Part shown: positions 13,652-19,100 of the stretch, piece by piece
Layout of the letters: each line of letters opens with the position of its first letter
Numbering within the stretch: the stretch's first letter is position 1
Assembly (NCBI RefSeq): GCF_002899715.1
Contig: NZ_PPEK01000001.1
Location: forward strand, 310,001 to 374,000
Direction: 5' to 3'
Length of the DNA: 64,000 bases
Source of the DNA: Enteroscipio rubneri
GTDB taxonomy: Bacteria; Actinomycetota; Coriobacteriia; Coriobacteriales; Eggerthellaceae
Notes under the pieces: generated by a model
The model's database searches: none
Told to the model about the DNA's origin: nothing
What the model saw: the letters and a program-made list of their open reading frames with translations, nothing else
Translations under genes and position numbers: made by a program

Positions 13652-14926
13652 ATGTTCGACACAGGATCGACGGGCTTCATGATCGTTTGCGCGATGCTTG
13701 TCCTGCTGATGACGCCGGGTCTGGCGTTCTTTTACGGGGGCTTGGGCCGCCGCAAGAACGTCGTGAACACGATGGTCATGTCGTTTGCGGTGCTCGGCAT
13801 CGTCGGCATCACGTGGACGGTGTGCGGCTGGTCGTTCGCGTACGGTGGCGATGGCTCGATTCCGTTCTTCGGGGGCTTCGATCAGATCGGCCTGCAAGGG
13901 CTCGTGGCCAACATCACGAGCGAGGCGCCCGAAGCGCTGAGTCACGACGCGTATCCCACGATGGCCGACGTGGTGTTTCAGTTGGCGTTCTGCATGATCA
14001 CCACGGCCATCATCACGGGCGCGGTGGCCGGTCGCGTGAAGTTCGGCGCGGTGTGCGCGTTCGTGGCCGTGTGGACCGTGGTGGTGTACCCGCCGCTCGC
14101 GCACATGGTGTGGGGCGGCGAGGGCAGCCTCGTGGGCGACACCATCGGGGCGCTCGACTTCGCGGGCGGCGACGTGGTGCACATCTCGTCCGGCCTCACG
14201 GGTCTCATCCTTTGCCTGATCGCCGGCAAGCGGCGCGGGTTCGGCCTGGTGAGCTACCGTCCCCACAACGTGCCGTTCGTCGCGTTGGGCGCCACGCTTT
14301 TGTGGTTCGGTTGGTTCGGCTTCAACGCGGGCTCCGAGTTCGCTCCCGACGGTGTAGCGGCGCTTGCGCTGGTGAACACCGTGGTGGCGTCGGGCGCGGC
14401 GCTCGTGTCGTGGATGCTCATCGAGCGCGTGCGTGCGGGCAAGCCCACGCTCGTGGGCGCGGCGACGGGGCTGGTGGCGGGTCTTGTGGTCATCACGCCG
14501 GCGGCGGGCTTCGTGGAGCCGTGGGCCGCGGTGGTCATGGGCCTCATCGTGTCGCCCGTGTGCTACGTCGCCGTGTCGTTCCTCAAGCGGAAGCTCGGCT
14601 ACGACGACGCGCTCGACGCGTTCGGCATCCATGCGGTCGGCGGCGTCACAGGAGGCGTCCTCACCGGCCTGTTCTGCGTGCCCGAGCTCTCGTGGACCGA
14701 CTTCGGCGGCCTGTTCTACACGGGCGATCCCACGCTGTTAGGTGCGCAGGTGCTCGGCATCCTCGTGACGGTCGTGTTCGTGGGCGTGCTCGACGTGGTG
14801 CTGGGCTTCATCATCAAGGCGTGCTTCAGGGGCAGCTTGCGCGTGAGCGAGGCCGAGGAAGCGCAGGGCCTCGACGTGGCCACCCACGGCGAGAGCGCCT
14901 ACCCAGCCTACGTGGGCCTCGACTGA
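13652..14926 (+). CDS. amt: Ammonium transporter
   Basis: This 424-residue protein has about 11 membrane segments and conducts ammonium across the membrane as a trimer. Family landmarks include LMTPGLAFFYGGLGRRKNVVN, DFAGGDVVHISSGLTGL, LWFGWFGFNAGSE and a late ALDAFGIHAVGGVTGGVLTG-type segment (here DALDAFGIHAVGGVTGGVL) carrying the second pore histidine. The ATG at 13652 is chosen because of the AAGGAGGT site ten bases upstream. glnB follows directly, so PII probably blocks the channel when nitrogen is sufficient. Confidence 0.96.
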   Translation: MFDTGSTGFMIVCAMLVLLMTPGLAFFYGGLGRRKNVVNTMVMSFAVLGIVGITWTVCGWSFAYGGDGSIPFFGGFDQIGLQGLVANITSEAPEALSHDAYPTMADVVFQLAFCMITTAIITGAVAGRVKFGAVCAFVAVWTVVVYPPLAHMVWGGEGSLVGDTIGALDFAGGDVVHISSGLTGLILCLIAGKRRGFGLVSYRPHNVPFVALGATLLWFGWFGFNAGSEFAPDGVAALALVNTVVASGAALVSWMLIERVRAGKPTLVGAATGLVAGLVVITPAAGFVEPWAAVVMGLIVSPVCYVAVSFLKRKLGYDDALDAFGIHAVGGVTGGVLTGLFCVPELSWTDFGGLFYTGDPTLLGAQVLGILVTVVFVGVLDVVLGFIIKACFRGSLRVSEAEEAQGLDVATHGESAYPAYVGLD

Positions 14927-14937
14927 CGACGATTGCT

Positions 14938-14967
14938 GTCGAGGTGTCGCCCGGGCGGCACCTCGAC
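14938..14967 (+). other. Intercistronic hairpin between amt and glnB
   Basis: Arms GTCGAGGTG and CACCTCGAC pair perfectly, and the inner bases extend the stem to about 14 pairs with one G-T wobble. No T-run follows, so it is more likely an mRNA processing/stability element or partial attenuator than a terminator. Confidence 0.7.
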
Positions 14968-14986
14968 TAACGGAAGGAGCACTGTT

Positions 14987-15325
14987 ATGAAGAAGATCAC
15001 GGCCATCGTGCGGCCCGAGAAGCTTGAGCCGCTCAAGGAGGCGCTGTTCGCTGCGCAGGTGTCGGGCATGACCATCTCACAGGTGCAGGGCTGCGGCAAG
15101 CAACACGGGTGGAAGGAATACTACCGCGGCACCGAGGTCATGTTGAACACGATTCCCAAGGTGAAGTTCGAGCTCGTGGTGGACGACGCGGAGGCGGGCC
15201 CGCTCGTCGACCTCATCCGCGCCACGGCGCGCACCGGCGAGGTGGGGGACGGAAAGATATTTGTCTTCCCGGTGGACGAGGTCATCCGCATCCGTACCGG
15301 CGAGACGGGGGAAGCTGCGGTGTAG
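14987..15325 (+). CDS. glnB: PII nitrogen regulatory protein
   Basis: This 112-residue PII signal protein senses 2-oxoglutarate and ATP/ADP and should control Amt. KKITAIVRPEKLEPLKEAL, the T-loop KQHGWKEYYRGTEV, PKVKFELVV and TARTGEVGDGKIFVFPVDEV followed by IRIRTGE are characteristic. Valine occupies residue 51, the position of the uridylylated tyrosine of E. coli GlnB, so control by UMP addition there is excluded. ATG at 14987 with AAGGAG upstream. GlnK would be an equally good name given the amt linkage. Confidence 0.95.
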   Translation: MKKITAIVRPEKLEPLKEALFAAQVSGMTISQVQGCGKQHGWKEYYRGTEVMLNTIPKVKFELVVDDAEAGPLVDLIRATARTGEVGDGKIFVFPVDEVIRIRTGETGEAAV

Positions 15326-15333
15326 AATGGTCT

Positions 15334-15475
15334 TGGCGGAAACCGCCATGCAGAGTCGTCAGAGCTGCTGCGTGCGAGGTTCGGTTGACGAGGTCTCGCA
15401 CGCACGGCTCTGTCCCTCGCGCAAGAGGGGTTCTGCGGTAGCCGATCGCGTGAAGACGGTTTGCTGTGCGATCGG
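15334..15475. ncRNA. Possible structured RNA between glnB and fur-type gene
   Basis: Four consecutive inverted repeats occur in 142 bases: 15334-15339/15343-15348 (6 bp, loop AAA); 15369-15378/15395-15404 (perfect 10 bp, TGCGTGCGAG arm) extended by 15361-15365/15407-15411; 15414-15418/15425-15429 (5 bp); and 15442-15449/15468-15475 (perfect 8 bp, CCGATCGC arm). I see no open frame with a credible start, and no U-run that would make any of these a terminator. Strand and function are unknown. Confidence 0.3.
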
Positions 15476-15553
15476 ACAAGCGGAAGGATGTGTGGATTCC
15501 GCGGCGCGCAGGACTTGGTTGCAGGGGGTGTTTCGTGTCTGACGCTAATGATA

Positions 15554-15559
15554 TACAAT
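15554..15559 (+). promoter_or_regulatory. Candidate -10 box of the Fur-family gene
   Basis: TACAAT lies in an AT-rich patch (about 15545-15600) that stands out from the GC-rich surroundings; the -35 (TTTCGT, 17 bases upstream) is poor. The patch would also suit an autoregulatory Fur/PerR site, but I see no convincing palindrome. Confidence 0.3.
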
Positions 15560-15603
15560 ACTATTTGGTTTGCAGTACAGTTAGTGTCAGGATAGGATGC
15601 GAC

Positions 15604-16023
15604 ATGGCGACCACGGCGAAGCAGGACCGCGCGGCGACGCGCAACACCATACAGCGGACGCTCGTTCTGGAGGCAGTGCGATCATTGCACAACCATCCAA
15701 CGTCGGCCGACGTATACGACGTCGTGCGCGAGCGCCATCCGAACATATCGCGTGCGACGGTGTACCGCAACCTCGGGGTGCTAGCGCAGAGGGGCGAGGT
15801 GCTTCGTGTCGAAGTGCCCAACGGCGCCGATCGCTACGATTTCCACAACAAGCCGCATTACCATGCGAAGTGCCGCGTGTGCGGCGGCGTGTACGACATC
15901 GATATGCCCTACCAACACGACATCGCGTCGCATGTTTCCGACGCTCACGGCTTCACCATCGAGCACCACGAGATCATCTTCGAAGGCGTATGCGCACGCT
16001 GTAAGAAAAGCGCTGAGAACTAG
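15604..16023 (+). CDS. Fur-family metalloregulator (PerR-like)
   Basis: This 139-residue protein has the Fur winged helix (NTIQRTLVLEAVRSLHNHPT, SADVYDVVRERHPNISRATVYRNLGVL) and a C-terminal dimerisation/metal domain. Two CxxC pairs, CRVCGG and CARCKK, give the structural zinc site, and HNKPHYHAKC supplies regulatory metal ligands. It represses iron-, zinc- or peroxide-response genes depending on the metal. FHNKPHYHAKC resembles PerR more than classical Fur, but this is an inference. The ATG at 15604 is chosen; the frame remains open upstream without homology. Confidence 0.88.
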   Translation: MATTAKQDRAATRNTIQRTLVLEAVRSLHNHPTSADVYDVVRERHPNISRATVYRNLGVLAQRGEVLRVEVPNGADRYDFHNKPHYHAKCRVCGGVYDIDMPYQHDIASHVSDAHGFTIEHHEIIFEGVCARCKKSAEN

Positions 16024-16122
16024 GGGTTCAACCCGTTTCGATACCGAGGAACCGCGGTAGCAAACGCTGAAAGAAAAAGCTACTATAGACGAAAGCGGCG
16101 TTCGCCGAATGAGTCGATTGAG

Positions 16123-19100
16123 ATGGCGAGGTACCGCGTGTTCGAATACATGGATGATATATCCGAGATCGTATACGTTGCCGATATTGAGACTCACGAG
16201 CTGCTGTACCTCAACGACTCCGGGCGTCGCCTGTTCGGCGTGGAGGATATCGCGGGGCGCACATGCCACGCAGTGCTGCAGGGATCCAACACTCCGTGTT
16301 GTTTCTGCACGAACACCCGGCTCCGGCACGAGGAGAACTACACGTGGGAGCGTATCAACCCGCTGACGAACCATCGCTACCTGCTGAAAGATCGACTCAT
16401 CGATTGGCAGGGTCGCACGGCGCGGCTCGAAGTCGCGTTCGACATGACGGCAAGCTCGAACGGGCAGGCCGATTTCCGCATTGCGCTCGATGCCGAGAGC
16501 ATGGTGCTGCAGTGTGCTCGCGATCTGAATGCGGCGCACGAACTTGCCAGCGCGACGGACGGCATGTTGCGCCGGTTGGGGGCTTTTCTGCGTGCCGATC
16601 GTGCGCACATGTTCGGCGTGCGGGGCGACCGCATTTTCGGCGTGCGCGAGTGGTGTGCGATCGGAGGGCCTTCTCGCTTGCGCAACCTCGAAACCATCAA
16701 GGAAGCTACGCTTCGCAGATGGGAGCGCTTCTTCTCGCGAGGCGAATGCGTGGTGATCGACGATATCGAAGAGCTCCGTGAAGCTCAGCCCGTCGAGTAC
16801 GCGTTCCTGAAAGACCACGGTATCGATGCGGTGGCGGCCGTTGCGTTGGGGCGGTTGAGCGGGGTCTCGGGGTTTCTTGTGATCGAGAACCCGCAGAAAA
16901 GCCTCATCAAGAACACCCGATCTTCGCTGCAAACGCTCTGCTACTTCTACATGAGCACGGTGCACCGCATCGAGAACGAGAAGAAGCTCACCCTGCTGAG
17001 CTTTCACGATGCGCTGACCGGACTGTACAACCGCAACCGCTATATGAGCGATATCGCTTTCCTCGGCGCGCGCGAAGGCTCGCTCGGTGTTGTGTTCATG
17101 GATGTCAACGACCTCAAACTGGTGAACGACCGCTACGGTCACGGGCGCGGAGACGAGGCCTTGCGCATTTGCGCGGCGAAGATGAGGGCGGCGCTTGGCG
17201 GAGCCGACCTGTACCGCATTGGGGGCGACGAGTTCGTGGCGCTCGCTGTCGATGTCGAGGAGGATGTGTTCGTCGCTATGGTGGACCGCCTCGAGCAGAC
17301 ACTGAAGGTCGAGGAAGGCGAAGCGGGCCTCTTCGTCTCGGTGGGTGCGAGATGGTCGCCGGACTGCAGCAGTGTGGAGGCGTTGTTGACCGCAGCCGAT
17401 CAGGATATGTACGAGAAGAAGCGCTCGTTCCATGCCGAACGAGCGCTGGCGAACGCGCTGCCTTACGAAGACGCGGATCGGTTGGGGCGCGAAGCGCTTG
17501 AGGACGATATCGTGCGCGCGCGGGAGAGCGCGTTGTTGCGCGAGTACAACATGTTGATGAGCGCGCTGCATGTCTCGGTGAGCAAGCATCTGTTCACCGA
17601 GCGGTTCGAGGTGGTGTGGGCGAACGACTACTACTACGCCATGACCGGGTACACGCGTGAGGAGTACGAGGACCTGTTCGACAACTGCTGCGCCGCGTAT
17701 TTCGCGAGCGAGCCCGACGAGTACACCGCCTTGAGCAAGGCGGTCGTGGAAGCGTACGAGGCGGGGGAACCGGGTTACGAGCTTCTCATGCACATGCCCT
17801 GCAAAGGAGGCGTGTACACGTGGATTCGCGTGGTAGGCATGTTCACGAACGAGATTATCGACGGCGCGCCGGTCATCTACGCCACGTTTGTGAACGTTGA
17901 CGACGTGGTGCAGATGGAACGCGAGCGCTCCATAACCTATGACAACATTCCCGGGTTCGTGGCGCGTTATCGCGTGGCGCGAGACGGGCTCATGCTGCTG
18001 TACGGCAACAAGCGATTCGTCGATTTCTTCGGCCCGATCGGCGACGTTTCGTCAAACTCGCTGCTGCAAGAGAATCTCCAGATCAACGACGCGGTAATTG
18101 GCGCTCAATACGAGCGTATGCGCAACGGCGAGCCCGTATCGTTCGATGCGGAGGCGTTGAGCGTTCAAGGGAATCGCGCCGCATTCAAGATTTACGCCGA
18201 ATGCGTCAACCGCATCGAAGGCGATCCGGTGTACCTCGTGCTGTATCTCGACATGACGGAGATTGTCGAGCAGCGGCACTTGACGGAACGGGCGATGGCC
18301 CAGCTGCGGGAGCTCGCATACGTGGATCCAGTGACCGGCGGGCGGAATCGCGTGAGCTTCGAGTCGGATGCGACCTCCGTGCTGAAAAGTGCATCTGAGG
18401 GCGCGTACGCGTTCGTCTCCCTCGATGTCGACAAGTTCAAGGTGATCAACGATCAATTCGGGCTTGAGCAGGGCGATGCGGTGCTCAAGGTGCTGTACGA
18501 CAGCATCGCGGGGCAGCTCGACGCGGGCGAGTTCGTCGGGCGCATTTCCGCCGATCTGTTCAACCTGCTGCTCAAGACGAACGCTTCCCAGCGCCTCGAA
18601 GCGCGACTCGAGGAGATGATCGCCGAGGCGAATCGCGCGCTCGTGTTCGACGGCGTGAACACCTACCTGCTGACCGCCACCGCAGGCGTGTACGTGGTGG
18701 ACGATCCTGCGCTGCCGATGATCCGCATTCGCGATCGCGCGAACGTGGCGCGCAAGAAAGCCGGCGCGCGGCGCGCGGGACGCCTGTGCTCGTGTCGTCT
18801 GTACAGCAACGAGGACCGCGTGCGCCTTGCGAACGAGAAGGATATCGAGAATCGTATGCGCGAAGCGCTCGGGGCGGGCGAGTTCGTCGTGCACCTTCAG
18901 CCGAAGCTCGATCTGCGCAGCGGCAAGGTGGTGGGCGCCGAGGCACTCGTGCGATGGCAGGATCCTTCGAAGGGCCTTGTACCGCCAAACGACTTCATTC
19001 CGCTCTTCGAGCGCAACGGATTCGTCGTTGACCTCGATCTGCACGTGTTCGAACAGGTGTGCGGGTTGCAGCGCGCGTGGGCCGATGCCGGCATGCGACC

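Follow-up and report, generated by a model that had tools for sequence, protein, structure and literature searches.

The part of the window described here (the window being the whole 64,000-nucleotide stretch of DNA that was analysed) holds, in order, a GNAT acetyltransferase gene on the minus strand, amt, glnB, a gap, a gene for a Fur-family regulator and a large open reading frame, which, from the appearance of its translation, we take to resemble a GGDEF/EAL protein. Pfam backs the GNAT, Amt, P-II and Fur-family identities: the ammonium transporter gene amt (13652–14926, plus strand) matches PF00909 and scores 431 bits with TIGR00836, above cut-off; the P-II nitrogen regulator gene glnB (14987–15325, plus strand) is above cut-off with PF00543 and has a positive codon score; and the Fur-family gene (15604–16023, plus strand) is above cut-off with PF01475, its top NCBIfam score being for a PerR-type regulator, yet below all cut-offs. 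We presume glnB to be the last gene of its operon. The genome measures 2.83 Mb, has a G+C content of 62.8% (over the 464 kb examined) and encodes rho (622 bits, above cut-off); judged by GlnB, its closest relatives are Eggerthellaceae. No tRNA or tmRNA was found within the window.

Four stem-loops on the plus strand occupy 15334–15475, 3′ of the glnB stop codon, which ends at 15325, and 5′ of the Fur-family gene, and they lie where the initial annotation had placed them. The first, H1 (15334–15348), starts 9 nt from the stop codon and is a predicted 6-bp hairpin of −8.6 kcal/mol. The main hairpin, H2 (15360–15412), starts 35 nt from the stop codon and has a predicted energy of −37.5 kcal/mol (z −6.1), with a stem of 18 bp interrupted by one bulged base and 4 further pairs at the top. 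H3 (15414–15429) is a predicted 5-bp hairpin, and the best fold of H4 (15442–15475) has −14.0 kcal/mol; the gaps between successive hairpins are 11, 1 and 12 nt. The two perfect stems of 8–10 bp that had been noticed earlier correspond to the 10-bp arms within H2 (15369–15378 and 15395–15404) and the 8-bp outer arms of H4. Additionally, a 6-bp helix that is predicted only (15350–15355 with 15431–15436, thus spanning 15350–15436 on the plus strand) would enclose H2 and H3 in a three-way junction, and this part of the fold (15350–15437) reaches a z of −5.1 against shuffles.

The structure in the glnB–Fur gap exceeds chance. The stretch 15334–15475 folds at −76.2 kcal/mol (z −4.75) and the slightly longer stretch 15326–15475 has a z of −4.15, and in neither case did any of 200 shuffles fold as well; z values from 40–60 shuffles vary, the glnB stretch having given −3.4, −4.3 and −5.4 in separate runs. 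Relative to its composition, the reverse strand folds comparably, with z values of −4.96 and −5.50, as is usual for inverted repeats. As in a canonical (L-shaped) intrinsic terminator, a stable GC-rich hairpin stands shortly 3′ of the last stop codon, but the U-tract that should follow it is absent: the bases directly 3′ of H2, TCCCTCGC, hold 2 T in 8 nt, and a consensus scan of 14900–16150 gave no terminator-like site on the plus strand.

Hairpins behind genes here and behind glnB elsewhere

How unusual is a cluster of this kind for this genome? Within 464 kb of the genome, we surveyed the 3′ sides of genes whose spacer measures 100 nt or more (n = 172), using crude codon-score gene calls, some of which are wrong, and letting convergent spacers enter twice. 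Among these 3′ sides, z falls below −2 in 56, below −3 in 34 and below −4 in 24, as compared with 6, 3 and 0 of 117 coding stretches and 5, 3 and 0 of 47 divergent-promoter spacers. The glnB stretch ranks 19th of the 172 by z and 8th by its best 56-nt hairpin energy; its hairpins are not unusual in this genome. The 8 nt that follow contain at most 2 T in 36 of 61 strong 3′ hairpins and at least 4 T in only 6 of the 61, which makes U-poor hairpins frequent behind genes here. The mean T count after strong 3′ hairpins (2.03) is higher than after coding hairpins (1.26), and some of the 3′ hairpins may therefore be canonical; the glnB one is not. The glnB hairpins look like ordinary end-of-message structures, such as are found behind many genes of this bacterium.

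A further survey covered 54 distinct glnB 3′ flanks, mostly from Coriobacteria (loci up to L070), with a flank dropped if its first 80 nt were identical to those of an earlier flank or if it was shorter than 400 nt. Genes were again called crudely by codon score, in places wrongly: at L033, for instance, a minus-strand gene is called at 2 nt, yet the Fur gene lies at 164 nt. With these calls, the flanks fall into three groups. Where 100 nt or more are free, or no following gene is called, z is −2 or lower in 21 of 38; the intermediate flanks give 9 of 12, and the small group with a same-strand gene within 40 nt gives 0 of 4. Many relatives carry different, often very stable hairpins after glnB, whatever gene comes next, and the stems vary in sequence from relative to relative. 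Several glnB flanks with free space are unstructured (e.g. L021, L025, L054 and L063). Very strong inverted repeats, above that of the window, stand behind glnB at L048 and L028 (z −10.6 and −8.1); at L048 the outer stem, AT-rich and 15 bp long, could be a small mobile palindrome.

The hairpin structure travels with glnB. In genome G001, of the same genus, the Fur gene is present without an amt–glnB neighbour, and the hairpins are absent; the Fur gene there adjoins what by eye is apparently the same GNAT gene, with no amt–glnB in between. The amt–glnB pair has thus been gained or lost at the GNAT–Fur junction. G001 is the only other genome of the genus examined, and the junction that lacks amt–glnB lies at L134 1234–1503; its glnB is found elsewhere (L009), with an open reading frame apparently starting immediately behind it.

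Conservation of the hairpin region

Neither the sequence of the hairpin region nor its pairing could be followed into relatives. Among the matches listed by BLASTN against 138 family genomes, the whole stretch is matched only in its own genome (E 7.7e-120) and the remaining matches are short, the best covering 32 nt at an E of 7.8e-4; no listed match that could be compared falls at a glnB–Fur spacer. When 11 glnB–Fur spacers are aligned, the hairpin region fails to align, and RNAalifold run on such spacers predicted 0 pairs. Stem covariation had been named in the initial annotation as a check on the stems, and a pair count that includes the window row seems at first to provide it (62.4% paired, with 0 of 500 shuffles as high), but the window row contributes 47 of the 170 cells of this count by construction. 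The 10 relatives without that row pair in register in 48.0% of 123 cells, as against 41.6–54.0% when the same relatives are slid by 1 to 5 columns. In other words, the covariation suggested by the higher figure disappears when that row is left out, and a lack of stem covariation is one of the two refuting signs that the initial annotation had named. Rfam gave no match at gathering score, nor at E up to 1. From these comparisons, the hairpin region appears to be conserved neither as sequence nor as structure, and we reject a conserved noncoding RNA on the Rfam, sequence and covariation results together.

These results bear most directly on the idea that the stretch is a regulatory small RNA whose body would be the three-way junction and which would be either transcribed on its own or cleaved from the amt–glnB 3′ UTR. 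Small RNAs derived from 3′ UTRs are a familiar and well-known theme in bacteria, and the very stable, compact fold with its predicted junction (z −5.1 for 15350–15437) would suit such a molecule. Against it stand the lack of sequence conservation among the matches listed in the 138 family genomes and the lack of covariation, a consensus scan without a promoter-like site, the absence of an Rfam match, and the finding that structure equally strong is common behind genes of this genome. Among the matches listed, the literature on Eggerthella lenta small or noncoding RNA holds no small RNA of Eggerthella, and that on glnB/amtB together with small RNA holds no amt–glnB 3′ UTR RNA. We regard a small RNA as unlikely. 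Very unlikely indeed is a regulatory RNA particular to this species that would consist of 15350–15437, either cut out of the amt–glnB 3′ UTR or kept there, and would report ammonium status to other genes.

A putative promoter and operator of the Fur-family gene

Downstream of the hairpins lies a conserved block (15546–15566, plus strand) that is a putative promoter/operator of the Fur-family gene. It is a 21-base, AT-rich, partly dyad-symmetric sequence (TAATGATATACAATACTATTT) that matches TAATGATATAYAATMCTATTW, and all 12 invariant columns of the 11-spacer alignment fall inside it. The block contains TATAAT in most relatives, is common to several genera, is present in G001 although no glnB is there, and occurs as a single copy in the window's genome at up to 3 mismatches. 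Judging from this pattern, the block is probably the Fur gene's promoter together with its own (autoregulatory) operator; it would separate two transcription units, with a start site for the Fur transcript that we infer.

Could the hairpins be a 5′ leader of the Fur-family gene, an attenuator or riboswitch-like element, as had been suggested? They lie on the same strand as that gene and upstream of it. However, in the window and, by our own reading, in 10 of the 11 aligned glnB–Fur spacers they lie upstream of the promoter/operator block, and therefore they are hardly a leader of the Fur gene. Additionally, with a z of −1.34, the spacer that follows the hairpins (15476–15603) is not unusually structured, and the Fur gene of G001 has the promoter block in front of it and no unusual structure (z +0.43). 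The exception is G036 (L012), whose strongest hairpin is found downstream of the Fur operator block, an arrangement that speaks for a leader; we nonetheless consider a leader in the window quite unlikely. In the G036 interval (L012 1219–1497, minus strand), a perfect hairpin of ~15 bp tailed by TTTT and two copies of a ~36-base repeat separate the operator block from the Fur gene, and the Fur transcript of that genome may carry a leader terminator. G036 also has two glnB copies (C229:3040–3375 and C136:2562–2897), which are similarly close to the window GlnB (81% and 79%).

An element acting at the level of DNA, i.e. REP-like dispersed palindromes, a recombination site or a protein-binding palindrome, would agree with the perfect inverted repeats and with the good folding of both strands, but the stretch is not conserved in relatives, and we hold such an element to be very improbable. 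We reject a REP-like dispersed repeat on the single match in the genome itself at E ≤ 0.001, and a link to mobile elements on the absence of any match in phage and plasmid collections. Least probable of all is a short coding sequence or gene remnant: open frames span the stretch on both strands, but mean codon log-odds are negative for all five ORF stretches across the gap (−0.19 to −0.50, whereas glnB and amt each have +0.41 and the Fur-family gene +0.22), which speaks against a hidden gene and agrees with the original description of the stretch as free of genes, and a six-frame comparison of 15326–15603 with 129 loci gave a best E of only 0.017.

A probable 3′ end of the amt–glnB message

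The reading that we favour, and consider likely, is that the amt–glnB mRNA has its 3′ end region at 15334–15475, in the form of a U-poor hairpin cluster. Among the functions originally offered for the stretch, a 3′ UTR module of amt–glnB is supported, if this simply means a terminator or 3′-end structure, and the Fur leader and the separate small RNA are not. The position directly behind the glnB stop codon favours this reading, as do the surveys of gene 3′ sides and of glnB flanks, the unstructured Fur spacer of G001 and the presence of rho. Against it, no T-run follows the main hairpin (2 T in 8 nt); several relatives' glnB flanks with free space lack structure; G036 has its strongest hairpin past the Fur operator block; and four hairpins with a possible three-way junction are more than a minimal terminator needs.

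On the 3′-end reading, a GC-rich stem-loop cluster with almost no U-tract would fix and protect the 3′ end of the amt–glnB transcript, and the same cluster would insulate the Fur-family gene, itself started from its own promoter further downstream. Transcription would end at the hairpin cluster, and a mechanistic question follows; does Rho release the transcript just downstream, with trimming back to the stem-loops, or is release driven by a hairpin that has no U-tract? We lean slightly toward Rho release and trimming.

Comparable 3′ ends have been described in other bacteria. According to the account in PMC8269248, Term-seq in Streptomyces clavuligerus assigned 353 of 1,427 mapped ends to a class that is highly structured and U-poor ('HS-U-lack TEPs'), explained there as U-less intrinsic terminators or as stem-loop-protected ends of Rho-terminated transcripts. 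As in this class, characterized in that account, a strong stem-loop rich in G+C stands in a GC-rich genome and has fewer than 3 U among the 8 nt that follow it (H2 followed by TCCCTCGC). The S. clavuligerus ends were mapped, whereas the glnB hairpins are predicted from sequence, and they comprise four stems in an organism of another group (Eggerthellaceae-type).

A second precedent is the proposal of Gupta and Pal (2021) that hairpin clusters without poly-U act as terminators, made for 13 genomes (PMC8355165). As that proposal is outlined, the hairpins lie less than 15 nt apart and start within 80 nt of the stop codon, and poly-U is not needed; the glnB cluster shares this spacing and position and has no poly-U. 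The differences are that the stems reported there have 2–10 bp, whereas that of H2 has 18 bp, and that those clusters rest on RNA-seq coverage, whereas ours was read from the DNA only. For mycobacteria, a review summarizes U-less, I-shaped terminators alongside a dominant role of Rho (PMC12288462), and its reference list reflects conflicting findings on the U-tract; the glnB stretch resembles the I-shaped terminators as summarized there in having a hairpin without a U-tail ~50 nt or less from the stop codon.

What does this mean for the organism? Long hairpins are commonplace behind genes here, and in this GC-rich genome a stable intergenic fold therefore does not on its own point to a regulatory RNA, which makes for a clean negative. 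If U-poor clusters do end transcripts in this bacterium, its genome would be a place in which to test U-less termination against Rho release followed by trimming.
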